This document shows positions 7,571 to 33,191 of a stretch of 33,191 nucleotides of DNA, piece after piece (positions within the stretch are counted from its first letter, which is position 1; the number at the start of each line of letters is the position of its first letter). The notes below the pieces were generated by a model that saw only the letters and a program-made list of their open reading frames with translations, was not told the origin of the DNA and made no database searches. Position numbers and translations under genes: made by a program. The stretch spans positions 1 through 33,191 of the forward strand of contig JAUREI010000024.1 in assembly GCA_030827515.1 (NCBI GenBank). The letters run 5' to 3'. The DNA is from Prosthecobacter sp. (GTDB lineage: Bacteria; Verrucomicrobiota; Verrucomicrobiia; Verrucomicrobiales; Verrucomicrobiaceae).

Positions 7571-10500
7571 CTAGTTGCCGTCCCCGGTGCCAAACCAGGC
7601 GCTCATGGACCGGCCTGAATAGCCGGTCATCTCCAGGTAGCCGCGCCCGGTCACCGGCCGGCCGGCCGACGTGCCGCGGTAGTCCACCGCCCCCTCCCAG
7701 TACCCCAGCCCGGGCATGTTGACGGCCCGAAACTCCTGCTCGGGAAGCGCCGCCTGCGCCTCCAATGCCAGTCCCAAGCTGGGCACCTCCAGTTGCCAAT
7801 CCACCGGATACCTGGCACCCACCGGGGAGGTCCAGGTGCGGCCGGGAGTCAGACGGAAATCCCCGTTCTCGAGAGCCACGACACTCCCGTCCGGCCGAAT
7901 CCATGTGCCGGCACTTCCGGTCGCCGCACCACCGTTTTCAGAACGGAGCTGGAAGAGCATCAGCGCGCTGCCGTCGTCGAGTTGGGCGCTGAACCAATCC
8001 CAGCCGGCCGTGCCCTTCTCGAGGAAACTGCTGCCGAATTCGTGGTCCATCCAGCTCACCCCGGTCACCTCATGACGCTCGCCTCCGACGCTCAGCACGC
8101 CGCGCGTCGGCAGGCGGGGGAAGGAATAATAATGGCTGGCGTTGCCGGCCGTCGCCCCTTTCTGGCTAAGCCCGTCCCGGCCGTGCACCACCGGCTCGCC
8201 GTCCGATTCCAGCCGGAGGTCGAGTCCAAAGCTCCGGTCACCCGCCATCAGCGTCATGCCACCCGCCTCAAATCGACACTGCCAGTCCTCGTTCCAGACG
8301 CGCCCAGGATCGGCACCCGCCAAACCGGGTCCGGCCCGGTTAAGGCGATCGGCATGATGATAGGCTTTGCCCGCCACGTCGGTCAGGGCCAGATGCGCCA
8401 TCCAGACGTCGCGCAGGGCCCAGTTGGAGCGCCCCTCCGGATTGGCGACGGCACCGATGCGGAAAAAAGTCAGCTGATACCCAAAACGCCTTCCCGCGAC
8501 CGTGTCGAGGTTGCCGGTGAAATACCACCACTCGATTTTGTGTCGCGGATGCGCGCCATGATCGCGCGGGAACTCGTAGCGGTAGCCGGGCTCGGCCGGC
8601 TGCCAATCCGACGACGGCTCCTGCGCAGCCACCGGCAGGCCGACCAGCAAGAAGGCGGCACCGAGCCTTGCCACCGCACGCCGCGCCGGCCAGAACCCGG
8701 CGAGCATCGTCCCCAGAACGGTCAGCAGCGTTGCCCCCGTCAGCAGGCCCCAGGGGGCATGAAAGCGGATGCTCCAACCAAAGCTCTGGGGATTGATGAC
8801 ATGAATGAGCAGCAGCGACAGCAACAGGCCGACCGCCAAACCGAGCGCCTGGCTGACCGCACCCAGAATGCCGGACTCGATGAGGATCGTGCGCCGCAAC
8901 TGAGCCGCATCGGCCCCAGCCAGATGCAGCAGTCTCAGCTCCGCGCGCCGCTCCAGCACCAGGGTCAGCAGGGTGGCTGCCACCCCCGCCATGGCCACCA
9001 GGATGGCAATGATCTCCAGCGCCCAGGTGATGGCAAAGGTGGCGTCAAAAATGCGCAGGACCTCGGCGCGCAAACCGGCGTTGGTGAACACCGAGACGAA
9101 GCCGTGGCCGTCGAGCGCCGCCAGCATCTCGGCGCGCACCGCCTCCGGGTCGGCTCCCGGCTTGAGATAGAGGGCGAGATGCGTCGGCCGACTGCTGCCA
9201 AACCATTGTTCAAACATGGCCTGGTCCAGAGTCACCGTGCCGCTGTCGCTCGAGTAATCATAAAACTGGCCGGCGATGCGGAAGGACTGGGGACCCTTGG
9301 GAGTCGGCAATTCCAGACGGTCCCCATCCCGCACGCCAAAGCGCAGGGCGAAGCTTTCCGAAACGAAGATCTCGCCGCGCTCCCGAGCCTGCCGAAGCAG
9401 CGCGTTCGGATCGCCCGGCGACTTGAACACCATGCGACCGTGCTCGATCTGCACGGCGAAATCGCCGGTGCCCAGCTTGATGACCCGATCGCGAAAGGGC
9501 AGGTCGAGGGCGCGATAGCCGTCGGCCGCCGCCACGGCGGGGTGTCCGGTCAAGCGGTCCAGAGTATTTTGCGACAGGGTGGGTGCCCCCTGACTGCGGG
9601 CCGGCGTGCCGGGCCTGACATACAGATCCGCACCCATGCTCTGGTCGACCCACAGCAGCACGGTCTGGCGGAAGCTGCCGACCATCACCGCAATGGCGGT
9701 GGCGAGGGCCAGACTGACCGCGAGTGCGGCGACCGACACCGAGAGGCGCGGCGTCGAGGCGCGGATTTGCGCGGCGGCGAGCCGACCCTCCAGGCCGAAC
9801 CACCGACCCAACGAACCCCGCAGGGCGGCGGCGGCCGTGCGCAGCAGCAGCGGTGTCAGCAGCGCCATCACGGCAATGGCGGCGAGACAGGCGACATATC
9901 CCCACAGGGGCAGGCCGGCCACCGGGGGTTGCAGGGCCGCCAGCCAGCCTGCGCAAGCCACCAGCAGGGCCAGCCCACCGCGGCGACTCCAGGATGCCCT
10001 ACCGTCCGAATGCAGGGCCGCATCATCCCGCAGGGCCTCCACCGGCGGGACGCGCGCCGCCTCGCGGGCCGGCACGGCGGCGGCAGCCAGCGCCAGCGGC
10101 ACGGCGATGCCAATCGCCGCCAGCCAGTGCCAGAACTGCAGGGCCGGCACACGCGCGGCAGTGGCCACGTACAGGGTGTCGACCGTGGTCGAAGTCAGGG
10201 CCACAGCACCCTCGGCCAGAGCCTTCGCCAGCGGCACGCCGAGCAGGGCGCCTCCCATTCCGAGGAGCAGGGCCTCGCCGAGAAACAGCCCCAGCACCTG
10301 GCCCCGGGTCAGCCCCAGCGTGCGCCACAGGCCGATCTCGCGACGCCGCGTCATCACCGCCACGGAAACGGTGTTGTGGATGAGAAAGAGCCCGACCAGC
10401 AGGGCAATGCCCGACAGCATGGTCAGGTTGAAGTGAAAGGCCGCCAGCATTTTCTCGACCGCCGCCGTTCGGCGCTGCGGCCGGGCGACCTGCAGCCCTG

Positions 10501-11224
10501 CCGGCAGACGCTGCCGCAGTTCCTGCTCGACCACATCGATCCCAAGCCCGTCGTGCAGGCGCAACTCCAGCCGGTCGAGCCGGCCGGCCTTGTCGAGCAG
10601 GAGTTGGGCATGGGCGATGTCCATGACCGCCAACGCCTGGGCCGACAGGGCCGAGTCGCCGCCAATCACCGCACTGACCTCACAGTCGCGGCGCCGATCC
10701 CCGACAAGCAGGGTCAGCCGGCCGCCCGCCTGCAAGCCATGGCGCTCGGCAAAGCCGCGAGTGACCAACAGGGTGTCGGGACGGCCGAGAAAACGCATGA
10801 GGTCGAGCCCCGCCATCGCCGCATCCTCCTGCACGGCGTAATCGCGCAGGGCTGGGTCACGAAGGACATCCACGCCGATGAGGCGCAACATTTCTTCCGA
10901 ACCGTCCGTGCGCGCCAGAACATCGGCCTCGACCACCGGTGCGGCGACGCCGAACTGGCGCAGCCAGGCGAGCCCGGCAAACCGGGTCTCGTCGATGCCC
11001 AGCGGCGGACTGCTGATCTCCAGCGCCGCCTTGCCGGAGACGGCATCCAGGGCAGCGGCAAAGCCGCCAAGCGAACCGCGGTTGGCAAGCTGGATGCCCA
11101 GCATGACCGCGACTCCAAGAGCGACTCCGGCGAGGCTGAGCAGACTGCGGGCGGGTTCCTTGAGCAGCGGCCGCACCATGAGGCGGCGAAACAAGCCCGG
11201 AATGCCAGATTCAATCAAGTTCAT
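7571..11224 (-). CDS. FtsX-type ABC permease fused to a CrtC/AttH lipocalin-like domain
   Basis: A single frame of 1217 codons. Residues 1 to about 854 form a complete MacB/FtsX-type permease with two core blocks. The first is FHFNLTMLSGIALL with a cytoplasmic RRREIGLWRTLGLTRGQVLG loop; the second contains ERRAELRLLHLAGAD, ending in LAGFWPARRAVARL. Then comes a signal-peptide-like stretch (LGAAFLLVGLPVAAQE). The CrtC/AttH (carotenoid 1,2-hydratase-like) lipocalin domain fills about 870-1217, with HPRHKIEWWYFTGNL, SWMDHEFGSSFL and GWDWFSAQLDDGSALMLFQL. These two proteins are usually separate neighbouring genes. I chose the ATG at 11224 (AAGGA about 10 bases upstream); a GTG at 11248 overlapping the ATPase stop is the alternative. 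Likely role: extraction or export of a lipid-like ligand bound outside the inner membrane. Confidence 0.88.
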   Translation of the reverse strand: MNLIESGIPGLFRRLMVRPLLKEPARSLLSLAGVALGVAVMLGIQLANRGSLGGFAAALDAVSGKAALEISSPPLGIDETRFAGLAWLRQFGVAAPVVEADVLARTDGSEEMLRLIGVDVLRDPALRDYAVQEDAAMAGLDLMRFLGRPDTLLVTRGFAERHGLQAGGRLTLLVGDRRRDCEVSAVIGGDSALSAQALAVMDIAHAQLLLDKAGRLDRLELRLHDGLGIDVVEQELRQRLPAGLQVARPQRRTAAVEKMLAAFHFNLTMLSGIALLVGLFLIHNTVSVAVMTRRREIGLWRTLGLTRGQVLGLFLGEALLLGMGGALLGVPLAKALAEGAVALTSTTVDTLYVATAARVPALQFWHWLAAIGIAVPLALAAAAVPAREAARVPPVEALRDDAALHSDGRASWSRRGGLALLVACAGWLAALQPPVAGLPLWGYVACLAAIAVMALLTPLLLRTAAAALRGSLGRWFGLEGRLAAAQIRASTPRLSVSVAALAVSLALATAIAVMVGSFRQTVLLWVDQSMGADLYVRPGTPARSQGAPTLSQNTLDRLTGHPAVAAADGYRALDLPFRDRVIKLGTGDFAVQIEHGRMVFKSPGDPNALLRQARERGEIFVSESFALRFGVRDGDRLELPTPKGPQSFRIAGQFYDYSSDSGTVTLDQAMFEQWFGSSRPTHLALYLKPGADPEAVRAEMLAALDGHGFVSVFTNAGLRAEVLRIFDATFAITWALEIIAILVAMAGVAATLLTLVLERRAELRLLHLAGADAAQLRRTILIESGILGAVSQALGLAVGLLLSLLLIHVINPQSFGWSIRFHAPWGLLTGATLLTVLGTMLAGFWPARRAVARLGAAFLLVGLPVAAQEPSSDWQPAEPGYRYEFPRDHGAHPRHKIEWWYFTGNLDTVAGRRFGYQLTFFRIGAVANPEGRSNWALRDVWMAHLALTDVAGKAYHHADRLNRAGPGLAGADPGRVWNEDWQCRFEAGGMTLMAGDRSFGLDLRLESDGEPVVHGRDGLSQKGATAGNASHYYSFPRLPTRGVLSVGGERHEVTGVSWMDHEFGSSFLEKGTAGWDWFSAQLDDGSALMLFQLRSENGGAATGSAGTWIRPDGSVVALENGDFRLTPGRTWTSPVGARYPVDWQLEVPSLGLALEAQAALPEQEFRAVNMPGLGYWEGAVDYRGTSAGRPVTGRGYLEMTGYSGRSMSAWFGTGDGN

Positions 11225-11244
11225 CCGCGGGGTGTCCTTGCCTT

Positions 11245-11913
11245 TCACACAATCCGCCCGTCCTTCATGCGCACCTGCCTGCCCGCCGACGCGGCCACAC
11301 CCGCGTCATGGGTGGCGAGCAGGATGGCCACGCCGAATTCCCGGTTCAGTTCGCCCAACAATTCCAGCACGGTGCGGCCGTTTTCGCTGTCGAGGCTGCC
11401 GGTCGGCTCGTCGGCGATCAGCAGGACCGGCCGATGCACAACCGCCCTTGCCAGCGCCGCGCGCTGGGCTTCACCCCCGGAAACCTGGGCGGGATAGTGC
11501 CGTAGTCGGTGCCCAATGCCGACCCGGTCAGCCAGGGCACGGGCGGCGGCAAAGGCCTCACTCTCAGGACGCCGTGCCAGCAGCAGTGGCAGCGCGATGT
11601 TCTCCAGCAGGGACAGGGTCGGCAGGAGGTTGAAGAACTGGAAGACGAAGCCGATCCGGTCGCGGCGCAGGCGGGTCAATTCGGCGTCCGTCAGTGCTGT
11701 GACGTCGCGCCCGTCGAGGTGCAGCGTGCCCGCATCGGCTCGATCCATGGCGCCGCAGAGCTGCAGCAGGGTCGACTTTCCGCAGCCGGAGGGGCCGGTC
11801 ACCGCCACGAAATCGCCGGCCTTCAACTGAAGGGAAACCCCACGCAGGGCCGGCACCGCGGCCCCGTCGAGGGCGTAGGAGCGGTGCAGGTCGGTGGCGG
11901 CGAGAACGGTCAT
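11245..11913 (-). CDS. LolD/MacB-type ABC transporter ATPase
   Basis: A 222-residue ATPase with Walker A GPSGCGKS at residues 40-47, Q-loop Q92 in [10 protein letters not shown], signature VSGGEAQR at 144-151 and Walker B LLIADEP at 164-170, followed by TGSLD. This is the MacB/LolD subfamily that pairs with FtsX-fold permeases, and the partner is the fused permease encoded directly downstream. The stop at 11245-11247 overlaps the alternative GTG start of the permease. The product energises a mechanotransmission-type exporter rather than a classical substrate-translocating pore. The start is 45 bases after the PLP-enzyme stop. Confidence 0.94.
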
Positions 11914-22833: not shown

Positions 22834-25305
22834 TCAGGGGGCGCCGAGCCGTTGGCGCGCCTTGTCCGCGGTCAGGCCCATGGCCGGCAGTTCGAAGTCA
22901 AGGGTGTCGCCATTGGGACGGAAGCCGCCGCCATCCTCGTCGACGTAAATAGGGTTGTTGTAGGCGCAGGGGCGCATACGCGCGTAGTCGCTGGTGCCGA
23001 AGCCGGTTTTCATGTCGCCATCCTCGTCGAGAGCGACCACGATGACATGGGCATCCTGCTGGAGCGGGATGTGCAACGTGTGATCAAACTTGACGACGCC
23101 CTCCTGGAACATCTGGGGATGGGTGGCACGGGTGAAGTTGAAGTCCGGATGAGGACGGCTGTTGACCAGCACCTGGACGCGATCCACGTCCATCCAGTCA
23201 TTGCACTGGACGCGCACCTTGAGCTCGATCCCGCCCGTGGAACGCACATCGTCGCCGGCGGTTTTGCCGTCGGGCGTGGTGACCTCCAGAAAGGGGCCGG
23301 TGGTCAGGATGATGTTGCCGGCCTTGGCACGCGGCGCGAGCTGCGCCCAGTCGATCTGCGCCGGGTCATCGGTGGTGCTGGGAAGGTAGATGCGCCAGGA
23401 GCCGACGCCGTTGCCATAGACGCTGTGGGCATCGGCAACGCCAACGGCAACCAGTCGGTGCCCCTGGTTGAGCAGCTGGCGCCAGAGGAATTCACGCACG
23501 TAGGACACCTTGGCGGCGAGAGCTCCGGCCGGCCGAGTGACGGTGAAGGGGGCGTCGGCGAGAATGTTCGTGCCGGATCCGTTTTGCGACTCGCTGCCAT
23601 CGATCAAGGCACCCACGCCGACAAAGCCTCCATCCGTCACACCGTCACCATCGCGATCCACGAACATGTTCGAGAGGTCGGGGTGATTGAACTGGATCCA
23701 ACGGTCGGCGCGCTCGCCCTGCCAGCGACGCAGGGTAAGGGCGGTGATCCGCGGATCATCGTTCCATTCCGGCGCACCGCCATCCTGGGCAAACGCATCC
23801 GGCTCAAAGGGGAAGGCGTTGAAGTGCTGGCGTCGACCGGTCAATTCGACCCCCTTGATCGTCTTGAGGAAGGGAGCGAGACCCAGCTCGCGGAGGGTCG
23901 GCTCCCAGTCGAAGAAGCGGTTGTGTTCGGTGGTCGGTGCGAATTCAATGTGTTCGGCGGCGAGGTTGATGAGGCGGCCGTCCGTGTCGCATACGTTGTC
24001 CCCGCTGGGCGTGCTGTGATTGTGGAAATCGCTGCTGATCCAGCCGCGGCTGTCGACAAGGCGCTTGAGAACACCCTTGAATTCGACCGTTTTCCCAGCC
24101 GAAACCAGAACCTCGCGATCAAGATGGCCGTATTCCGGTCCACGCACCACCACCACGCGGTATTTGCCTGGGGCCAGTTGCTGGGTGAAGCGTCCGTTTT
24201 CGCTGTGGAACTGGTCCACACAACCGTGTGCGCGCCATTTCGGGCCGAGATCCAGTTTCGGCGCGCCCTCATCCAGGGGGGTGAAATGGGCCTTGCAGGG
24301 GATGGGCTTGCCATCCTCTCCGGAGATCTCAAAGCGGATGCCGGCGGCGGGTTCCAGAAACAGCTCCTTGTCGCTTGGAATTTGCCTTTCCCAGCGCACC
24401 TCGGGGCGGCCGAGATCCCTGATACCCAATTCCGTCCCGCCCTGCGGCAGTTTGAAAGTGAAACGTCCCTGGGCGTCTGTGTAACCAGGCACGGTGCTTT
24501 TGCCAAAGGGCACATCAAGGGTTGCCGTGGTGACTGGGCGGCCTGCCTGGCCCGTCTCGCTGATGCTGCCGGCAAGCACCGCGGTGCGCACCCCCTGCAC
24601 GGTCAACACCTCCCCGACTGCTTCAGCGGGTGAAGTGCCGACAGCGAAGAAGCGCTCGATGACAACCTCCTGGCCGGCAGCCAGTTCGAGACTGTCGGCC
24701 AGCTTGTCGATGCCGGTCAGGCGCAGCACACCGAGGGCATAACCGCACTTGTGAGCCGGATTGATGGCATCGGCCCAGCGGATGCCGTCCGCCGTGGTGC
24801 CGGTGGCATCAAAGCGGGTCAGATCATCCTTGGTGCCGACTTTCTGCGCGGTCGCCGACTCGTTGCGAAAGGTGGTGGTGATGAAAACCCCCTGGATGCC
24901 ATCCTCGACACGATACTCGTGGCGCTTGAAGACGCCACCGTTGAGCGGCGCGCTGGTGACGCTCTCCACGGCGGCGTTTCCGGCGGGTCGAACGTAGGAG
25001 ACAGGGCCGTGGCCGCAGGGGCCGTAGACCACGAGCTGGTCATTGGCGGCACCGCGCAGGGTGAGGTCATACAGGCAGCCGGGTGAAACACCGTCCTCTC
25101 CGTAGAAGGTGCTCATGTTGGCGCGTCGATTGGCGGCGTTGTGGGAGATCACGGCCTCCACCTTGTCGCTGCGCAGCACGAAGTCGCCGCGTATGCCGTC
25201 CGCCTCCTTGCCACCGGGCAGCTCGGCCTCTCGACCGCCGCGGGCTTCAAAGACTTCGGCGGCCTGAACGGCCAGAGGCAGGAGGAGCAGGAGAAAGCGT
25301 TTCAT
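22834..25305 (-). CDS. CehA/McbA-family PHP-type secreted metallohydrolase
   Basis: An 823-residue exported protein with a Sec signal (MKRFLLLLLPLAVQAAEV). Residues up to about 410 are beta-rich, including a carboxypeptidase-regulatory-like module (YTDAQGRFTFKLP and GKYRVVVVRG). The metal-dependent PHP domain follows: H428-x-H430 in SDFHNHSTPSGDN, E460-H461 in PTTEHNRF, H541 in QFNHPDL and D625-x-H627 in VADAHSVYG. This set matches the CehA/McbA carbaryl-hydrolase-like family of phosphoesterases/esterases. An EF-hand-like loop, DRDGDGVTD, spans residues 550-558 inside the domain and may bind calcium. The physiological substrate is unknown, perhaps a phosphodiester or glycan-linked ester. It is the last gene of the minus-strand run. 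Confidence 0.88.
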   Translation of the reverse strand: MKRFLLLLLPLAVQAAEVFEARGGREAELPGGKEADGIRGDFVLRSDKVEAVISHNAANRRANMSTFYGEDGVSPGCLYDLTLRGAANDQLVVYGPCGHGPVSYVRPAGNAAVESVTSAPLNGGVFKRHEYRVEDGIQGVFITTTFRNESATAQKVGTKDDLTRFDATGTTADGIRWADAINPAHKCGYALGVLRLTGIDKLADSLELAAGQEVVIERFFAVGTSPAEAVGEVLTVQGVRTAVLAGSISETGQAGRPVTTATLDVPFGKSTVPGYTDAQGRFTFKLPQGGTELGIRDLGRPEVRWERQIPSDKELFLEPAAGIRFEISGEDGKPIPCKAHFTPLDEGAPKLDLGPKWRAHGCVDQFHSENGRFTQQLAPGKYRVVVVRGPEYGHLDREVLVSAGKTVEFKGVLKRLVDSRGWISSDFHNHSTPSGDNVCDTDGRLINLAAEHIEFAPTTEHNRFFDWEPTLRELGLAPFLKTIKGVELTGRRQHFNAFPFEPDAFAQDGGAPEWNDDPRITALTLRRWQGERADRWIQFNHPDLSNMFVDRDGDGVTDGGFVGVGALIDGSESQNGSGTNILADAPFTVTRPAGALAAKVSYVREFLWRQLLNQGHRLVAVGVADAHSVYGNGVGSWRIYLPSTTDDPAQIDWAQLAPRAKAGNIILTTGPFLEVTTPDGKTAGDDVRSTGGIELKVRVQCNDWMDVDRVQVLVNSRPHPDFNFTRATHPQMFQEGVVKFDHTLHIPLQQDAHVIVVALDEDGDMKTGFGTSDYARMRPCAYNNPIYVDEDGGGFRPNGDTLDFELPAMGLTADKARQRLGAP

Positions 25306-25394: not shown

Positions 25395-26318
25395 TCATTC
25401 GCCGGTGAAACCCGGGTAGTGGCTTACATCCGCCTGCAGTTTGCCTGCGGCCGTGCCCATCATGCCCTCAATGACGCAGCGGGTGTCGTTTTCCTCGTCA
25501 AACACCGGCCCTTGACCGCTGACGCCGGTCAGTTTGGTGGCGCCAACCACGTACACCGGCACCCGGTTCAGGCTGCCGCCAAGGCTGGCGAGCCGTTCAC
25601 TGCTGGCGAACACCCCCTCCATGCGGGCATATCCCACAAAGACATCCTCCGCGTCAAAAGGTTCGCCGCTGAAATCGATGTAGTAGATGCGGGTGGACTT
25701 CCAACTTGATAGGTCCGTCTCGGTCACCGCCGTCGTGTCGGTCGCATACTGGTAGCGCTCCAGATAGTGATAATTGACGTTGGCCGCATAACCGCTGCTG
25801 TAGGTGTCGGGATAACCACGAAAGATGACAGCGTTGAGATCCACGATGTCACCCTGTGCGCTGTGGACGGCGTAAAAGCGGCTTTCTCCGGTGAAGGGAT
25901 ATTCGTCCATGAAGGTTGGCGTCACCTGCACAATCGACCACCCGGCGAGGTGGGGCGCGTTGCCATACTGCGGCAGGATACCCGCCTCGATGAGATCGGT
26001 GAGAAACTCCTTGTTGCCGTACTTGCGGGTACCGATCTTGGAAACGTACTCCTCGTGGTACTCGTCGCTGACGGGGATGTCGCCGCGGCTCTTCAAGATG
26101 AGCCAGTCATTGGAATAAGCGGGACCCCCGAGCGGCGCCCCAAACTCGTCTTTGGCCGGCAGGGGCTTGCCGGTGTCAGGATCCTTGAGAACGGTTCCAG
26201 GCAGACTGAAACTGAGGGTGAGATTGAATAGGACGCTGCCGACGGAGCCAGGCAGGGACTGTGCATCAACCGCGGACGTGGCAGCGAGCAAAACCAGAAG
26301 GAGGACGCGGGTTGTCAT
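25395..26318 (-). CDS. Secreted protein of unknown function (307 aa)
   Basis: It begins MTTRVLLLVLLAATSAVDAQ, a clear Sec signal. The mature part is rich in Tyr, Ser, Asp and Gly (FRGYPDTYSSGYAANVNYHY, YYIDFSGEPFDAEDVFVG) and looks beta-structured. There is one Cys (C280). I recognise no family. The tail, VIEGMMGTAAGKLQADVSHY, gives no membrane anchor. It sits 89 bases upstream of the PHP metallohydrolase and 60 bases after the DUF4412 gene on the same strand, so it could belong to the same transcript. Confidence 0.8.
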   Translation of the reverse strand: MTTRVLLLVLLAATSAVDAQSLPGSVGSVLFNLTLSFSLPGTVLKDPDTGKPLPAKDEFGAPLGGPAYSNDWLILKSRGDIPVSDEYHEEYVSKIGTRKYGNKEFLTDLIEAGILPQYGNAPHLAGWSIVQVTPTFMDEYPFTGESRFYAVHSAQGDIVDLNAVIFRGYPDTYSSGYAANVNYHYLERYQYATDTTAVTETDLSSWKSTRIYYIDFSGEPFDAEDVFVGYARMEGVFASSERLASLGGSLNRVPVYVVGATKLTGVSGQGPVFDEENDTRCVIEGMMGTAAGKLQADVSHYPGFTGE

Positions 26319-27076: not shown

Positions 27077-28234
27077 TCAGGAGCCGAGCATGTTGGCGTT
27101 GAAGACCTCCTCGGAGATCCTGCCGTCGCGATAAAGGCTCATGAGCGACTGGTTCCAGCGCATGTTGCCCTTGCAGCGCAGGGCGTCCTCGAGGGAGGTG
27201 GCGCTGCCGTCGTAGGCGCGGATGCCCGCGGAAACCGCCTCGCTGGTGTTCTGCAGGTACTCTGTGACAAGGCAGCGACCACTGAAACCGGTGAGCAGGC
27301 CCTGGGAGAGCACGAAGGTGAGGGTTTCGCCGAGACGGTGCAGGATGCCGTGGTGCTGGTCCTTCGGGAAAAATTCCATGATACGGTCGATCGTCTTGAC
27401 CGCACCGCGGGTATGCAGGGTCGAGAGGACAAAATGACCGGTCTGCGCGGCCTCGATGCAGGTTTCCATGGTTTCGCGGTCGCGGATTTCCCCGAGCAGG
27501 ATGATGTGCGGCGTTTTGCGCAGCACTTCCTTGAGGCCACTTTGGTAGGTCATGGTGTGGCGGCCCACCTCCTGCTGGGTGACCAACGAAGGACAAGGAA
27601 TGAAGACCCCGGGGCGGTTGGGATCCTCCATGGTGGTGCCGTAACGATATTCGATGGGGTCCTCGACGGTGACGATGTGTTTCTGGAAGTTGCGCCGCAC
27701 CCAGTCAAGGATCGCCGCCAGCGTCGTCGATTTGCCGGAACCGGTGGGACCTGTAATGAGACCGAGACCAAAGCGGCGCTGCATGAGTTCCCGCAGGCTG
27801 TCCGAAATCAGCGGGTCAATGCCAAGGGTTTCCAGCTGGCTTATGCGGCCGCGCAGGCAACGGCAGGTGACCCCCATGCCATGATCGCTCAAGTGCACCT
27901 GAACGCGCATGCGGACCGGCGAGCCGAGCGCCCCCTCGTCGCAACTGAAGTCGATGACGCGCTTCTCACGCAGCATTTCCCACATTTTTTCAGCCCCGCC
28001 GACGACCTTGGAGGAATCATCCCATACTTCCAACGTCTGGCGGGAAAAAAGGCCCTCGGCCAGAGCGGCGACCGCGGAGGCGTCCTGGAGACCGTAGGCT
28101 TCGGCAATTTCAAGTCCCCGGTTGGTGTGGAGATAAAGCAGACCTCCAGAGCGCACCTGAACATCGGAGATTTCGCGGTCGGAGTAGGTTTCGGTCAGTC
28201 GGCCAAGGAGGTTGTCAACAGTGCCGGTGCTCAT
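27077..28234 (-). CDS. PilT-like secretion/retraction ATPase
   Basis: A 385-residue GspE/PilT superfamily hexameric ATPase starting at the ATG at 28234. Walker A is GPTGSGKST (162-170), the Asp box VTVEDPIEY (188-196), Walker B IILLGEIRD (244-252) and the His box STLHTRGAVKTIDRI (271-285). It is closest to PilT, but two things differ. The segment between the Asp box and TQQEVGRHT carries about 13 extra residues with CPSL (around 200-216). The C-terminal retraction motif AIRNLIRE is not present; instead there is a helical tail ending EEVFNANMLGS. The stop of the 645-residue gene is 11 bases upstream. It probably powers assembly or retraction of the adjacent pilin-like proteins. Confidence 0.93.
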   Translation of the reverse strand: MSTGTVDNLLGRLTETYSDREISDVQVRSGGLLYLHTNRGLEIAEAYGLQDASAVAALAEGLFSRQTLEVWDDSSKVVGGAEKMWEMLREKRVIDFSCDEGALGSPVRMRVQVHLSDHGMGVTCRCLRGRISQLETLGIDPLISDSLRELMQRRFGLGLITGPTGSGKSTTLAAILDWVRRNFQKHIVTVEDPIEYRYGTTMEDPNRPGVFIPCPSLVTQQEVGRHTMTYQSGLKEVLRKTPHIILLGEIRDRETMETCIEAAQTGHFVLSTLHTRGAVKTIDRIMEFFPKDQHHGILHRLGETLTFVLSQGLLTGFSGRCLVTEYLQNTSEAVSAGIRAYDGSATSLEDALRCKGNMRWNQSLMSLYRDGRISEEVFNANMLGS

Positions 28235-28245
28235 GGATTGAAACT

Positions 28246-30183
28246 TCAATCCTGCGGTATTTCCTCGATGACAACAAGCCAATTCATCTGATGCACGGGA
28301 GGAAGTTCAGCCGGACTCCGAAGGGGTTTGAGATCGGCACTGATGTTCTCCGCGTGAACGGCATCATCGCTGCCAAGTTTGATGTCGAGCGGACTCCAGC
28401 TCGTGCCTGCGCCCTTGGTGAGCGTGCCGATCTGTCCGTGGTGTTCGACCAGCCGGTTGACCGCAGTGGTGCCGATGCGCAGTTCGGCGGCGAAGATGGA
28501 CAGAGGGGGATAGAAGGGCTCGGTTCCATCCAGACCGGATCCCTCCGGGGGGGCCGCCAGAGGCATGTCATTCAGGTCGTCCCCGACATAGACCCGCATG
28601 GGTGTGACCAATGAAAGGCCATGGGTGAAATTGGTAAGATCACCGCCCCTGCGGATGATCACGCACAAGTCATCGGCGGCAGGCGGGTCATCAAGGGTGC
28701 CGACCGTCACAGGGTCGAGCGAGGCATCGACGCCGAAGAAAACACTGTTGTTGATACCAACATTGGCCGCTCCATGAGCCAACAACCAGGGCTCAAAGAG
28801 GCTCGGCTGAAAATTCAGACACGAACGGCTATTGTCCATCAATTCGGTCTGGAATGGCACGTCGGCACCTCCTGGCTCGAACAAGGTCGGCCAGTTGACA
28901 CCTCGCCGGAGGACGACTTCCGAAGTGCCGCCGGTGCCATTCTGAAAACGCACACGCAGGGCCGTAGGCGTCTGATCCGCGAGGCTGACCATGCTGATCG
29001 CCTCAACGCTCACCCGACAGCGCCAGCCTCCCGATACATAGCCCTCCCAGGCGTTGGCAACCGCAGCGGGGCGAAGCAAAAACTCACGTCCGGGCTGGAT
29101 CGGCATGAAAGCAAGCCTCCCGGAATTGGCGGACAGTGCCACCGGCAGGGCATCACTCTGCTGCTCCGCCTGCATCATTTCACGGACACCGAGCGCGTCA
29201 AAATTTTCTTCCACCTGAACGCCTCCAACATCAATCGGACCGTTGAGCTGGATGCCGGAACGCCCGGCCAGCCGTGAAGCGCCAAATGTGTCCTGAACGG
29301 CCATGGCTTCGGCATAAACAGAGCCCTCAATGCGCACGTTGGCGGCATTCCAAGCGGCACCGTTCTGGTGACGGCCAATCTGCGCAAAGGTCGCCGCCTC
29401 GATGGGCATTTGCGATGGCACCTCAAAGAGCGAGAGAACATAGTGGCGAACCATCGGCTGGCGCGGGCCGCCGTAATTCACCGAAAAGGCCCACCAGTTG
29501 CGCTTGGCCACAAACGGTTCCCCGGGTGCCGCGTAGCCGAAGCGGATGTTCGGATAGGGAATGAGGTTGAAGTGGGGATAAGCGGCAACATCGGCCAGCA
29601 GGCCGGGTGCCTGAACCGTGTACTGCTTCTGCGATCCGACGATCGGACGATCGGCATCGGCCTGCTGCAGTGCGCCGGCAATACCAAGGAGCGGCGGCAC
29701 ACGTCCAGCAAAGGCGGGCTGGGCAAAGACATCGGCATAGTCCGTGGTGCCCGGGGTTACCCGGCCGGCCTCGCCAGTCAGGGAGGTGATCCAGCTCTGC
29801 ACCACCGCGTCTTCGGTATCGCCCACATCGCCCGCGCGCATGCGGTCCACTCCGAGTTCTGCGGCCAATTCGGAAGGCAAGCGCTTGGAAACGCCGGCTA
29901 TCTCCACCGCCTCGCGGAAGATGGTGGCCCAAGAATATTCATCAGCGGCGACGTGATCCGCGCTCATGCAGGCGGCTGTCTTGGCTGGCAGAATGGCGAC
30001 CAAGGCGCGCATCAGCGCGTCCTCGCGCTGGTGATAGTCCATGCGCAACTGTGTTTTGGCCGACTGATCGCGGGTCATCAAGTTCTGCTGGAAAAGCATC
30101 GCCAAGCCGAAAGTCATCAGCAACGCCAAGCCGGTGACCATGGGAATGGCTGCATAACCGCCGGAGCAACGGTGGCTCTTCAT
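28246..30183 (-). CDS. Large membrane-anchored pilus-associated protein (PilX/cassette protein A-like), 645 aa
   Basis: The N-terminus has about 12 mostly polar residues and then one hydrophobic helix (IPMVTGLALLMTFGLAMLFQ, residues 13-32) followed by an amphipathic helix, the same layout as pilin-like PilX/GspK proteins. No Gly-Phe prepilin site is obvious. The remaining 600 residues look beta-rich and extracellular or periplasmic, with few Cys. The gene overlaps the prepilin stop by ATGA (30180-30183) and precedes the ATPase by 11 bases, so it belongs to the same operon. It could be a tip or minor pilin-complex subunit. I considered the large 'A' protein of Verru_Chthon cassettes, but the match is by context and N-terminus only. 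Confidence 0.8.
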   Translation of the reverse strand: MKSHRCSGGYAAIPMVTGLALLMTFGLAMLFQQNLMTRDQSAKTQLRMDYHQREDALMRALVAILPAKTAACMSADHVAADEYSWATIFREAVEIAGVSKRLPSELAAELGVDRMRAGDVGDTEDAVVQSWITSLTGEAGRVTPGTTDYADVFAQPAFAGRVPPLLGIAGALQQADADRPIVGSQKQYTVQAPGLLADVAAYPHFNLIPYPNIRFGYAAPGEPFVAKRNWWAFSVNYGGPRQPMVRHYVLSLFEVPSQMPIEAATFAQIGRHQNGAAWNAANVRIEGSVYAEAMAVQDTFGASRLAGRSGIQLNGPIDVGGVQVEENFDALGVREMMQAEQQSDALPVALSANSGRLAFMPIQPGREFLLRPAAVANAWEGYVSGGWRCRVSVEAISMVSLADQTPTALRVRFQNGTGGTSEVVLRRGVNWPTLFEPGGADVPFQTELMDNSRSCLNFQPSLFEPWLLAHGAANVGINNSVFFGVDASLDPVTVGTLDDPPAADDLCVIIRRGGDLTNFTHGLSLVTPMRVYVGDDLNDMPLAAPPEGSGLDGTEPFYPPLSIFAAELRIGTTAVNRLVEHHGQIGTLTKGAGTSWSPLDIKLGSDDAVHAENISADLKPLRSPAELPPVHQMNWLVVIEEIPQD

Positions 30184-30713
30184 CGGGCTCCCCCTCCGTA
30201 GGTGATCTCTTCTCCATTCGGCCCATTCAGAGTGATGGTGAGAATGCCTTGGTCGGCGGCAAACGTGGCGTCACTCAGACGATCACAGATGCTCCAGGAC
30301 ACCTGCGAGCCATCAGCCTGGGTGTGATGGAAACGCAAATCAACACCCGATGCAAGGGGTTGGACTGAAACAATCCGGATTTCGGTGCTCTGGTCGGCGG
30401 CCCGGAAATACAACCGCACAGCGCGCCCGCCGGCAAGAACCGGCGTGGCACCGGCGACGGCGGCATCATGAGTGTCATAAACCAAAAAGTGGTCCGCCTG
30501 GCCGAAGATGCGGCCGACCAAGTTGCCAATCTTGGGAGCCTCGTCGGCCAGGAAACTCTGGCGCTGGGCCAACCCCATGAAAGTGACATGCTGCTGGAGC
30601 ATGGCCACCAGGCTGGAGCCCAAAATGAGCATCAGCCCCATGGCGGTGGATAGCTCCAGGAGAGTGAAGCCGGCGCGGCGCGCGCGGCGCGAGCTCATGG
30701 CGACGGTTTTCAT
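30180..30713 (-). CDS. Prepilin-like protein (minor pilin/pseudopilin, PilW-like)
   Basis: A 177-residue protein with a textbook prepilin peptidase site: basic leader MKTVAMSSRRARRAG, cleavage after G15, F16 at +1, E20 at +5 (FTLLEL), and a hydrophobic helix to about residue 37. The C-terminal domain is beta-rich. This places it in the type IV pilin/pseudopilin class, and its length suits a minor pilin. Starts and stops overlap neighbours by 4 bases on both sides, so expression is coupled. An internal ATG at residue 6 would still leave a proper leader. The prepilin peptidase and platform protein are not in the window. Confidence 0.9.
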   Translation of the reverse strand: MKTVAMSSRRARRAGFTLLELSTAMGLMLILGSSLVAMLQQHVTFMGLAQRQSFLADEAPKIGNLVGRIFGQADHFLVYDTHDAAVAGATPVLAGGRAVRLYFRAADQSTEIRIVSVQPLASGVDLRFHHTQADGSQVSWSICDRLSDATFAADQGILTITLNGPNGEEITYGGGAR

Positions 30714-31180
30714 TGGGTGCGCAAAACGGCCCGGCTTTTGACGTAAGTGTGTTCGCCCACTTGGTAGGTGAGAACCGAGTGCAGCCGCCAGATGGCCAGA
30801 TCGGGTGCACCTGCGCCCAAGGCTTCATCCTCGGGTGCGCTGTTGACCCGAAAACGCACAATACGCCCATTCACTTCGGTGCCTCCGGCAAGCCTCCCAA
30901 GGGAGACGACGCCCTCGAAACGAGCTTCATTCGCAGCGACATCTGGCCAGGGCGAGCCAGCGGCCGTGAGGTCCGCCACCGGCAGGCGGTTGGCAAGGGC
31001 GGATTCCCGGGTCATGTAGGCGTCGGTGAGCGTCTGCATGATAGTCCACTGGTTGCTGTCGAGCGCGAGCAGCGATGCACGCATCAGCAGGAGTGCCAGC
31101 ATGGCCGCCAGCCACATGCCAATCGAGACCTCGATGAGAAGGCTGCCGCGCGGGCGACTGATGGCGGATCGCAATTTCAC
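30710..31180 (-). CDS. Prepilin-like protein with GTG start (cassette protein B-like)
   Basis: The open frame extends to 31270, which would overlap the upstream gene by 65 bases and prepend a non-pilin leader. A GTG at 31180 gives a 156-residue product beginning MKLRSAISRPRG, a 12-residue basic leader, then SLLIEVSIGMWLAAMLALLLM. Cleavage after G12 puts Ser at +1 and Glu at +5, as in prepilins, although +1 is not Phe. The rest is helix then beta. It overlaps the next prepilin gene by ATGA (30710-30713). Probably a minor pilin or pseudopilin of the same complex. The start choice is the least certain point. Confidence 0.78.
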   Translation of the reverse strand: MKLRSAISRPRGSLLIEVSIGMWLAAMLALLLMRASLLALDSNQWTIMQTLTDAYMTRESALANRLPVADLTAAGSPWPDVAANEARFEGVVSLGRLAGGTEVNGRIVRFRVNSAPEDEALGAGAPDLAIWRLHSVLTYQVGEHTYVKSRAVLRTQ

Positions 31181-31205
31181 TGGCGGCCGACGATATGCGT
31201 CTGTT

Positions 31206-32369
31206 TCACTCTTCGACACCTTCGGCAGAGGTGAACTGACCGCGCGATGAGATGGTGCGGTCGACCTCAAAGGTCACATGCACAAGGCGCTCGGGGGCGC
31301 GATTGAAAAAGGGGGTTTCAGTGATCACCTCGAGGGTGTAGACGCCGTCGCGCGAGGCATAGTTGGAGAGGTCCTCCATGCTCAGGGAAAGTGTTTGCGG
31401 CACATTGGTCGGCTCCCCTTCGACATCCGGGTTGTAAAAACGGCCGAACTTGCGCTCAGTGCCGTTGATGAGGGTGCCCTCGCGGCCGAGCACAGCACTG
31501 CCGCTGTAGATCTGCACGTAGGTGCGCGAGTCTGGATAGAGGTGCTGCAGGCGGACCACGATCGAAGGGATGCGGTCGATGAGCACTTGCCCGGACGAGA
31601 TGTTTTCGATACTCGCCTTGGCGACCGGCCAAACCTCGATTGTCGGCTGGGCAAGAATCGCGTCAGGGACGCCGTCAGCCGCGTGACGAACAAAGGTGTA
31701 AATTTGTTTGCCGCACCCCAATGTAGGGGTGGCGGACGGCAGTTCATGATACAGCGGACTCAGGTCAGCGCTGCCGTTAGACAACTCCGCCTCAGACAGA
31801 ACCTCCGGATCTGCATCACTTTCATCGGAATAATCCTCCAAGGAGTAGCTTTTGTAATGGCAGCCGAAGTAGACTGATCGTTCGGCTTCGTTTGTGCTGC
31901 CGTGGACAAGGCCGCTGACCGTGTATCTCAAACCGAATGGACGGTCGGCACGGGTGCGCCTAATATAGTTACCTCCTGCAAGATCGCCTCGCGAATAATC
32001 ATCCTCCGACACGAGCTCCACGCTGATTTTGGGCGAGTACGCACGGATGATCTTGGTGTCGAGAAGATAAATCTTAGAGTCCCAAGCAGAACCGCGGGCA
32101 AACAGCTCAAACATCGATCCTTGCTCACCGATGGGCAGAGGCGCAGTAAACAGACCACCATCATCCGCCAACGGCAGGTCGTAGATGAGTCCACTGGTCA
32201 AGTCGGTCTGCCTCACCCAAGTGTTCTGGCCAGCTTGGCGGCAATTAAGGTCATCGTCATCGTCAGAGGACTCTGATCCACCGTCCGATGCCAGCAGGCA
32301 AGGAGTAAGGAGGAAGGGCGAACCAGCCGTCAGGCAAAACAACAGAAAGAGGAGATACGAGGCTTTCAT
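31206..32369 (-). CDS. Secreted acidic protein of unknown function (387 aa), pilin-cassette partner
   Basis: Sec signal MKASYLLFLLFCLTAGSPFL (cleavage near LLAS), then a strongly acidic stretch, DGGSESSDDDDD, at about residues 29-40. The mature domain is beta-rich with paired Cys residues (C43, YFGCHYKS, TLGCGKQIY), which could form disulfides outside the cytoplasm. Near the C-terminus YTLEVITETPFFNRAPERLVHVTFEVD resembles an Ig-like beta strand pattern. No named family recognised. It overlaps the upstream gene by ATGA (32366-32369) and is 25 bases ahead of the prepilin GTG, so it is cotranscribed. Local G+C is low (27 of 60 at 31801-31860). Confidence 0.82.
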   Translation of the reverse strand: MKASYLLFLLFCLTAGSPFLLTPCLLASDGGSESSDDDDDLNCRQAGQNTWVRQTDLTSGLIYDLPLADDGGLFTAPLPIGEQGSMFELFARGSAWDSKIYLLDTKIIRAYSPKISVELVSEDDYSRGDLAGGNYIRRTRADRPFGLRYTVSGLVHGSTNEAERSVYFGCHYKSYSLEDYSDESDADPEVLSEAELSNGSADLSPLYHELPSATPTLGCGKQIYTFVRHAADGVPDAILAQPTIEVWPVAKASIENISSGQVLIDRIPSIVVRLQHLYPDSRTYVQIYSGSAVLGREGTLINGTERKFGRFYNPDVEGEPTNVPQTLSLSMEDLSNYASRDGVYTLEVITETPFFNRAPERLVHVTFEVDRTISSRGQFTSAEGVEE

Positions 32370-32926
32370 GGCTTTTCAGCATCAGGAGGTTCAGGTTGCA
32401 GAAGACTGATTGGTCCATTTTTATAAACTGCGATCACGGCCTTGGACTCGCCCGCCAAGTTGCGGGCCAGTTGCTCAATACCGCGAACGTCACCCTTGGC
32501 GTTCTCAAGAGACACTTCCTGGCTTTTTAGCCACGCCGCATTGCGTTTCAGAAAGGCTGACCAGGTTAAGAAATCGCCCTCTGGCTTGCTGAGGATGCGC
32601 TCACGCAATGAGGGGGGCAGGTGCAGCACGCAGCCGGGAGGCAAAAGGGTAAAAAATCGGCCGTCGTGAACCACAATGGAACGGGAAATCAGATCGTGCT
32701 GCAATCTCGGCCTTTTGACCGCGATGTCTGCGCGGGCAACAGCGCCTTGTTTGAGATAATCTTCCATGCTTGGCGCAGCTTCCAGCCGGCTGCGCAATTC
32801 CTGGTCAGTGACCACATCCCTGGCCCTAGTCGGAGTCTCCGCCCGGGCAGGAATGATGCCGAGACAGAACATGGCTAGCCAGGAAAACTGACGGTGGCGC
32901 CACAACGGATGGGAAGGCGGATTCAT
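32366..32926 (-). CDS. Secreted protein of unknown function (186 aa), pilin-cassette partner
   Basis: I take the ATG at 32926, which gives MNPPSHPLWRHRQFSWLAMF then CLGIIPARAETPT, a Sec signal with AxA-type cleavage (ARA). The longer frame upstream overlaps the end of the previous gene. The mature protein is charged and mostly helical at its end (LENAKGDVRGIEQLARNLA) with a central LLPPGCVLHLPPSLRERI. I recognise no domain. The ATGA overlap with the next gene indicates coupled translation. Its position as a leader gene of the prepilin run suggests a periplasmic or outer-membrane accessory protein (inference). Confidence 0.82.
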   Translation of the reverse strand: MNPPSHPLWRHRQFSWLAMFCLGIIPARAETPTRARDVVTDQELRSRLEAAPSMEDYLKQGAVARADIAVKRPRLQHDLISRSIVVHDGRFFTLLPPGCVLHLPPSLRERILSKPEGDFLTWSAFLKRNAAWLKSQEVSLENAKGDVRGIEQLARNLAGESKAVIAVYKNGPISLLQPEPPDAEKP

Positions 32927-32942
32927 GATGGAGCGCCCTGCT

Positions 32943-33191
32943 TCAGTCGCGCGTGATCGTGGCCGTTCCTTGCGGTTGTAGTCCGGCATTCACAAGAAGG
33001 TAATCGCCGACTTCGAAGTTTAGGCTGCCGACCGGTGGCGGCGGATTCTTCTGATATTCACCGAGAATGTTGAACCAGCCGTTGGGTTTGTGCGCATTGC
33101 CGTTGCCCTGCCACTCGGTGGTGATGGTGATCGGGGAATTCTCCGCTTTGAAAACCGCACCGGGTGTGATTAGCAGGGTCTGCAGCGGTGC
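32943..33191 (-). CDS. C-terminal fragment of an unknown protein, 5' end outside window
   Basis: On the minus strand a frame is open from the window edge to TGA at 32943-32945, giving 82 codons: it begins APLQTLLITPGAVFKAENSP and ends GLQPQGTATITRD. The visible part is Thr/Asn/Pro-rich and beta-like (ITITTEWQGNGNAHKPNGWF). The next gene's ATG at 32926 follows after 16 bases, so this is the upstream member of the same operon. The family cannot be told from this piece. Confidence 0.7.
   Translation of the reverse strand, partial: APLQTLLITPGAVFKAENSPITITTEWQGNGNAHKPNGWFNILGEYQKNPPPPVGSLNFEVGDYLLVNAGLQPQGTATITRD

Follow-up and report, generated by a model that had tools for sequence, protein, structure and literature searches.

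The type IV filaments described so far include several systems that share parts with the locus analysed here. The type IVa pilus of Myxococcus xanthus has, like this locus, assembly and PilT-type ATPases, a platform, a secretin and a prepilin tip cluster, as well as an ABC ATPase and permease in the locus and several alternative tip clusters (PMC7541494, PMC3724824, PMC6060248). In that bacterium, the clusters of PilY1 and minor pilins are interchangeable (PMC7541494), and the PilGHI ABC proteins are required for type IV pili (PMC3724824). The type II secretion system (T2SS, GspC-M) shares with the locus the GspE, GspF and GspD domains, a set of I-J-K-like minor pseudopilins with a large K lacking Glu5, and a single long protein at the PilM-N position. 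At filament tips, GspK caps the I-J-K complex and minor pilins display PilY1 (PMC7248040). Within the same phylum, Verrucomicrobiota, the Amuc_1098-type pilus is a secretin-based type IV filament (PMC4960237, PMC5332112); by text search, the main text of a broad survey of type IV filaments contains no mention of the phylum (PMC6668835).

The window, that is, the whole stretch of 33,191 nucleotides of Prosthecobacter sp. DNA that was analysed, ends in a cassette of seven minus-strand open reading frames, six complete and one truncated, which span positions 33191 to 27077. The first one, AspG (32943..33191), is present as its last 82 codons (C-terminal); the contig end falls inside the gene. It is followed, all on the minus strand, by two secreted proteins with signal peptides, S207 (32366..32926; 186 aa, no known family) and S387 (31206..32369; 387 aa), by the prepilins I (30710..31180; 156 aa, GTG start, motif RG/SLLIEV) and J (30180..30713; 177 aa, motif G/FTLLEL), by K (28246..30183), a large prepilin-like protein of 645 aa with one N-terminal hydrophobic helix, and by a PilT-type ATPase of 385 aa (27077..28234). 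Three of the six junctions are ATGA overlaps (32369-32366, 30713-30710 and 30183-30180), and the remaining three are short gaps if the likely starts are taken (ATG 32926, GTG 31180 and ATG 28234); the mechanical start of S207, at 32989, gives 207 aa. An earlier sequence-only reading had described these seven genes and their ATGA overlaps, which is borne out, and had allowed that their homologues might be scattered without shared order, which is not so: the tabulated neighbourhoods keep the order across relatives. The arrangement is repeated in 20 relatives and again across the 79 named loci of a census, a recurrence that is far above chance.

The three prepilin-like proteins appear to follow, as tip subunits, the PilV-PilW-PilX (GspI-J-K) pattern. 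On the basis of the prepilin motif and the gene order, I would be PilV/GspI-like and J PilW/GspJ-like; the order I-J-K is kept in 66 of the 70 testable loci. A prepilin-type motif, mostly GSxxxE, is found in 101 of 104 members of the I family searched, J scores 17.7 bits against TIGR02532 (cut-off 16.3), and PF07963 matches 12 of 13 J family members. Searches of the I and J profiles against Pfam and the PDB matched the N-methylation motif alone, and neither protein matched the GspI/J or PilV/W models. K, in turn, matched no curated family. In a 63-member alignment its family conserves Gly-1, and nearly all members have Ala, Pro, Leu or Val at mature position 5, with Glu not among the residues listed; a large protein without Glu5 after I and J is a GspK-like trait. 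Because of the absence of Glu5 and its very large size, K is a candidate tip cap. Its structural model (pLDDT 87.2, pTM 0.85) has a 63-residue N-terminal helix (12-74), and a Foldseek search returned nothing under E 0.7, with no fold match past the pilin-like helix. Tapirins are pilus-linked cellulose binders; a resemblance of K to the tapirin C-terminal domain (VIA Z 3.1) was far too weak to use.

The secreted proteins are also a regular part of the cassette: in 51 of 54 testable loci, the genes for S207 and S387 precede those for the prepilins. AspG belongs to a family of secreted proteins of about 190-250 aa, Asp/Gly-rich in some relatives, and its HMM matches directly upstream of the 186-aa S207 gene in 27 loci; a complete form (L109:6710-7339) carries a signal peptide. 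The impression that the secreted partners match nothing known is supported, as no curated family was matched. The family alignment of S387 has 52 members. The AF2 model of S387 (mean pLDDT 87.1) consists of tandem Ig-like beta-sandwiches, with modest fold matches to the BIg domains of SiiE (Z ~8) and to the FnIII of RbmA (Z 7.7), both by VIA-align. S387 is a candidate tip adhesin or scaffold. It is similar to PilY1 in being secreted, encoded with minor pilins and duplicated together with them, but it differs in its modelled Ig-like sandwiches and in lacking a PilY1 domain; no Pfam match to the PilY1 family was obtained in either S387 or S207.

The window ATPase scores 152 bits against PF00437, and among solved structures it is closest to the PilT retraction ATPases (E 1e-44). 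The Walker A motif GPTGSGKS and the motifs GEIRD and TGHFVLSTLHT are kept across 59 homologues. Nonetheless, it reaches 244 bits against TIGR01420, below the cut-off of 319.1, whereas the canonical PilT/PilU of the same genome reach 436-440 bits. The platform lies in the same genome on another contig (C276:25337-35784, the cassette being on C263), so the earlier remark that no full pilus locus is present holds for the cassette contig and fails for the genome. This second locus encodes PilM/N-, PilO- and PilP-like proteins, a secretin, PilB, PilC, a pilin, an ABC-2 ATPase and an ABC-2 permease, and provides further prepilins beyond the two in the window. PilB (PF00437, 283 bits, cut-off 24.9), PilC (PF00482, 95.7 bits, cut-off 25.2) and the secretin (PF00263, 112 bits, cut-off 27.5) all exceed the curated cut-offs, and by these profile scores for ATPase, platform protein and secretin the system is a member of the type IV filament (TFF) superfamily. 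Several small proteins carry a class III prepilin signal (G/xxxxE), and the genome has one prepilin peptidase gene (PilD, PF01478), on C304. The PilM/N-, PilO- and PilP-like proteins precede the secretin in the right order, and their putative identities are taken purely from gene position: profile searches gave no relative for the three, and a sequence search of the PilM-N-like and PilO-like proteins against solved structures found nothing.

Comparison of gene neighbourhoods shows that cassette and platform belong to one co-inherited system, split here between C263 and C276. In most Prosthecobacter and Verrucomicrobium relatives, platform and cassette lie directly side by side, in many cases within a single operon. 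For instance, a co-directional operon S207-S387-I-J-K-ABC-permease-TM-PilT-pilin-MN-O-P-secretin is found in L127, L130, L132, L134, L142, L168 and others, continued by u196-PilB where the contig permits; the gene lengths in these loci are upper limits because greedy ORF calling gives fused or over-long starts. Among genomes at least 90% complete, K and the ABC permease occur together in 24 of 24 positive genomes and neither occurs in the other 50. The system itself is patchy, being present in 31 of 96 relatives. Where the K locus has no PilT or platform genes nearby, all 14 genomes keep exactly one system-type PilT elsewhere, with 48-55% identity compared with about 40% for canonical PilT/PilU. 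A point against this picture is Roseibacillus, where the ABC, permease and PilT genes are absent near the K/platform locus; PilT is found elsewhere in those genomes. For the cassette and the platform of G000 alike, the nearest relative is G009. A SufD gene lies beside the platform in G000 and beside the cassette in G009, which indicates that the two halves were once adjacent. The sequence-only reading had proposed that general platform proteins are borrowed; a dedicated, co-inherited platform exists instead. A pilVWX set beside pilM-Q, the other arrangement it had considered, is present in spirit in the relatives, with proteins that fall outside the standard families. Its broader idea of a pilin-type export or surface machine with its own PilT-like ATPase receives support.

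The cassette probably encodes one half, the tip and the retraction motor, of a type IV filament machine that is dedicated and specific to its lineage, and the best reading of the whole system is a filament confined to Verrucomicrobiales, putatively retractable and adhesive, with an exchangeable tip module. The tip looks exchangeable because the S207-S387-I-J-K module is duplicated in several Akkermansiaceae genomes in which one system-type PilT/platform was found. In this machine, the single PilD would cleave the prepilins, and I, J and K would assemble first as a tip complex capped by K. This complex would serve as the primer onto which PilB, acting on PilC, polymerises the small pilin. Exit would be via the secretin, and the window ATPase would pull the filament back; the direction of this motor is assumed, because the PilT and PilB of the system score far below the curated cut-offs. 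S387 and S207 may be exported by Sec and become part of the tip, where they would take the functional place of PilY1 and make the tip adhesive. The ABC-2 transporter is probably involved in pilin or envelope handling, by analogy with Myxococcus PilGHI; its ATPase and permease are likened to PilH and PilI by their presence in the locus.

According to the strongest alternative, which we regard as unlikely, the system is a T2SS-like exporter. S207, S387 and AspG would then pass the secretin in folded form, driven by a short pseudopilus that carries the I-J-K tip, and the only task of the PilT-type ATPase would be to reset this pseudopilus. The PilM-N fusion and the I-J-K pattern resemble GspL and GspIJK, the C276 PilB scores equally on the GspE (303) and PilB (304) models, and the C276 secretin scores higher on GspD (144) than on PilQ (127). 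However, four Gsp equivalog cut-offs are missed (GspE 303/630, GspD 144/351, GspF 123/424 and GspG 16/89 bits), and S207 and S387 move with the duplicated tip module (51/54 loci) like tip parts and unlike variable cargo. The system also has a co-inherited ABC-2 transporter and PilT-type ATPase; T2SS are not known to have the latter. A DNA-uptake pilus, in which tip proteins bind DNA and retraction draws it to the secretin for transformation, is quite improbable. The retraction motor and the large minor pilins would suit it, and ComZ of Thermus, a large minor pilin that sits at the tip and binds DNA, provides a precedent (PMC7248040). Against it, a DNA-binding domain was looked for and not found, competence genes were not recognised in the neighbourhoods read (no systematic search), and the patchy presence suits an accessory adhesin at least equally.

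A very improbable option is that the cassette provides tips for the canonical Amuc_1098-type pilus of the genome and has no platform of its own. The genome does contain the partners, namely two Amuc_1098-type secretins (1019 and 870 bits), canonical PilB/PilC, PilT/PilU and the one PilD, but the dedicated platform co-occurs perfectly with the cassette, adjacent or in the same operon in most relatives. The C276 secretin differs from the Amuc_1098 type in scoring 39-61 bits against NF042912, far below the cut-off of 750. Finally, that the cassette is a Verru_Chthon variant, a likeness raised by the sequence-only reading and consistent with a Verrucomicrobiota cassette of prepilin-like proteins with one very large membrane-anchored member, is hardly credible, since TIGR02596/02598/02599/02600 matched no window protein, TIGR02600 matched neither K nor its relatives in the 63-member alignment, and the genuine Verru_Chthon A (922-924 bits) lies on another contig, C283, with a probability of 0.1% in profile comparison with K and no sequence relation to the cassette found.

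The proposed filament machine also departs from the M. xanthus pilus. Its PilT forms a monophyletic, long-branched clade outside PilT/PilU, and its PilB another outside PilB/GspE (support 100, stem 1.58 substitutions per site); the C276 PilB reaches 304 bits against TIGR02538 (cut-off 675.65), and the genome's canonical ATPases of PilB type fall short of this cut-off as well, though at 511-593 bits. Further differences are S387 and S207 in place of the PilY1 family, the 645-aa candidate cap, and PilM/N/O/P counterparts unrecognisable by sequence. It is possible, though we propose it tentatively, that this is a distinct class apart from T4aP, T4bP, T2SS, MSH, Com and Tad, with a standing ABC-2 transporter and an exchangeable tip module consisting of two secreted proteins, one of them tandem Ig-like, on an I-J-K prepilin complex. 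Whether or not it is a separate class, the system extends the type IV filament family by a complete branch that is restricted to one lineage. As the ABC transporter is a standing component, the association known from Myxococcus PilGHI becomes testable in a second lineage, and the separation of a conserved motor from an exchangeable tip module would be a useful model for how pili alter their binding. Verrucomicrobium spinosum is reported to bear fimbriae at the tips of its prosthecae (PMC12283558), and we found no report of their genetic basis. The system would offer candidate genes for these fimbriae, and Verrucomicrobium sp. BvORR034 and BvORR106 carry loci of it.

The seven minus-strand genes between 33191 and 27077 are best read as the tip-and-retraction half of a complete, dedicated and lineage-restricted type IV filament system. 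The window is the entire contig C263 (33,191 bases) of a 4.05-Mb Prosthecobacter draft genome in 315 contigs, and the cassette predicted by the sequence-only reading is present as one truncated and six complete genes. With likely start codons, these encode: the end of a secreted protein (33191-32943), recognised immediately upstream of S207 in 27 loci; the signal-peptide proteins S207 (32926-32366, 186 aa) and S387 (32369-31206, 387 aa); the prepilin-like proteins I (31180-30710, 156 aa) and J (30713-30180, 177 aa); the PilX/GspK-like protein K (30183-28246, 645 aa); and a PilT-type ATPase (28234-27077, 385 aa). The several ATGA overlaps claimed earlier are found at three junctions (S207/S387, I/J and J/K), the other three having short gaps. 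The next gene downstream, for a DUF4412 protein (27020-26379), does not recur with the cassette in relatives, which places the end of the unit at 27077. This gene and the following one (25395-26318, minus strand, no family) both encode secreted proteins and are operonic-looking directly behind the PilT gene; neither is conserved with the cassette.

The full pilus locus described as absent is indeed not on contig C263, but a platform cluster is located elsewhere in the genome (C276:25337-35784). In this cluster Pfam supports T2SSE, T2SSF, secretin and ABC ATPase, with the ABC-2 permease below the cut-off. The second cluster comes after the cassette, on the opposite strand, in most relatives from Prosthecobacter and Verrucomicrobium, in the order 296-aa protein, ABC-2 permease, ABC ATPase, small pilin, small secreted protein, PilC, PilB, 196-aa protein and secretin. 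Beyond the secretin are proteins that occupy the PilP, PilO and PilM-N positions, with another pilin ahead of them; these labels reflect gene position only, and profile searches found no relative of the three. In more distant MAGs all genes run in one direction (S207-S387-I-J-K-ABC-permease-TM-PilT-pilin-MN-O-P-secretin-u196), continuing from u196 into PilB where the contig allows. Between secretin and PilB, 30 loci carry the 196-aa protein, which is conserved and belongs to no known family (L088:11458-12048, minus strand, on C276). In the Roseibacillus loci L149, L155, L159, L171, L175, L178 and L181, PilB, PilC, secretin and pilin are present, while ABC ATPase, permease and PilT are not adjacent; the system-type PilT is located elsewhere in all five Roseibacillus genomes searched.

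It is nearly certain that the system is a dedicated one. Among genomes at least 90% complete, K and the permease occur together in 24 and are both missing from 50, K without permease being limited to three genomes of 81-87% completeness; together with the platform on C276, this contradicts the proposal that general platform proteins are borrowed. Exactly one system-type PilT (48-55% identity, versus about 40% for canonical PilT/PilU) is found in each of 14 genomes where PilT is missing from around K or the neighbouring platform genes are few or absent. Most cassette and platform genes share the same nearest relative, genome G009. A SufD gene (84% identity) lies beside the platform in the window's genome and near the cassette in G009, which suggests, from gene order, that the two halves were once adjacent and became separated in the window's lineage. 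K homologues occur in 31 of 96 relatives, patchily inside the genus and across the order, and in 13 of 288 genomes spread over the phylum, all 13 from that same taxonomic order. Scanning the collection yielded 79 named loci, every title a Verrucomicrobiota group or genus (Prosthecobacter, Brevifollis, Verrucomicrobium, Haloferula, Luteolibacter, Roseibacillus and others). The homologues are not scattered without a common order: where sequence suffices, 66 of 70 loci have I and J ahead of K, and 51 of 54 have S207 with S387 upstream. The system is also on two contigs from lake MAGs whose records name Akkermansia muciniphila (L110, L150), yet no genome of the Akkermansia-like genus g12 had it; L110 is apparently G037, which belongs to the window's own genus, and both titles look wrong.

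Regarding the tip, class III prepilin motifs are found on I and J in nearly all members, and 57 of 63 K members retain Gly at -1. Mature position 5 of K is mostly Ala, Pro, Leu or Val instead of the Glu of most pilins, and GspK likewise lacks this Glu. The K model has an N-terminal helix of 63 residues followed by a large domain, for which structure comparison gave no fold match; K's sole fold resemblance, to two tapirin C-terminal domains of Caldicellulosiruptor, is very weak (Z 3.1 and 2.0). Since GspI-J-K, homologous to PilV-W-X, assemble into a capped tip complex (PMC7248040, PMC6211770), the gene order and features of I, J and K fit such a complex, and by analogy the three would assemble as one. 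The structure model of S387 is of good confidence and shows tandem Ig-like sandwiches, which bear a modest resemblance to domains of SiiE and RbmA; this predicted architecture is common in adhesins or scaffolds, and the chances that S387 is a tip adhesin are about even. S207 and S387 accompany I-J-K in module duplications (e.g., L167, L176, L183), much as PilY1 travels with the minor pilins of M. xanthus, whose clusters of this kind are interchangeable (PMC7541494). Two K genes are found in several Akkermansiaceae genomes (L163, L166, L167, L170, L176, L180, L183, L059), with one K at the platform (often without I and J) plus an extra S207-S387-I-J-K module, or with tandem I-J-K sets; these modules may be read as an exchangeable tip repertoire.

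The cassette has its own PilT-like ATPase, as had been noted: it scores 244 bits against the PilT family model, under the cut-off of 319, its nearest solved structures are PilT retraction ATPases, and the catalytic motifs are kept. A filament that extends and retracts is the likely product, a secretion pseudopilus being less likely. The ABC-2 pair is reminiscent of Myxococcus PilGHI, reported to be needed for pilin translocation (PMC3724824), a role under debate (PMC6060248).

Besides two Amuc_1098-type secretins, the window's genome also holds ordinary PilB/PilC (C172), T2SS-like ATPases (C201, C300) and PilT/PilU (C90). Against TIGR02538 its canonical PilB-type ATPases reach 511-593 bits (304 for the present system), and against TIGR01420 its canonical PilT/PilU reach 436-440 bits (244 here). 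In a 24-sequence maximum-likelihood tree, with reference sequences represented by their aligned parts only, the system PilBs and PilTs each form one clade (support 100; stems of 1.58 and 1.35 substitutions per site, respectively). Because the relations among the remaining PilB/GspE branches have weak support and long-branch attraction is possible, the tree shows separateness and not the branching point; a separate class of type IV filament machine is a tentative reading, somewhat less probable than its contrary. The likeness to Verru_Chthon cassettes did not survive: the Verru_Chthon models matched none of the seven genes, the genuine Verru_Chthon A of this genome lies on C283 (922-924 bits), and its profile comparison with K and 62 relatives was negative. 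Among the seven, matches to curated families are limited to the ATPase (PilT family) and J (prepilin motif), which agrees with the earlier view of the secreted partners as being of no known kind. The 63 members of the K family likewise gave no curated-family match. No paper describing the system was found in a literature search that did not cover most subscription journals.

Two other minus-strand genes of the window deserve mention. In a 1225-codon ORF (7571-11248), a CrtC-type double lipocalin is fused with two permease halves of FtsX/MacB type, and the 1234-codon ORF overlapping it on the opposite strand is probably a shadow. At 22834-25305, an 823-aa secreted protein, in which Pfam finds a CarboxypepD regulatory domain only, carries the motif HNHSTPSGD, by eye typical of PHP/CehA metallohydrolases.
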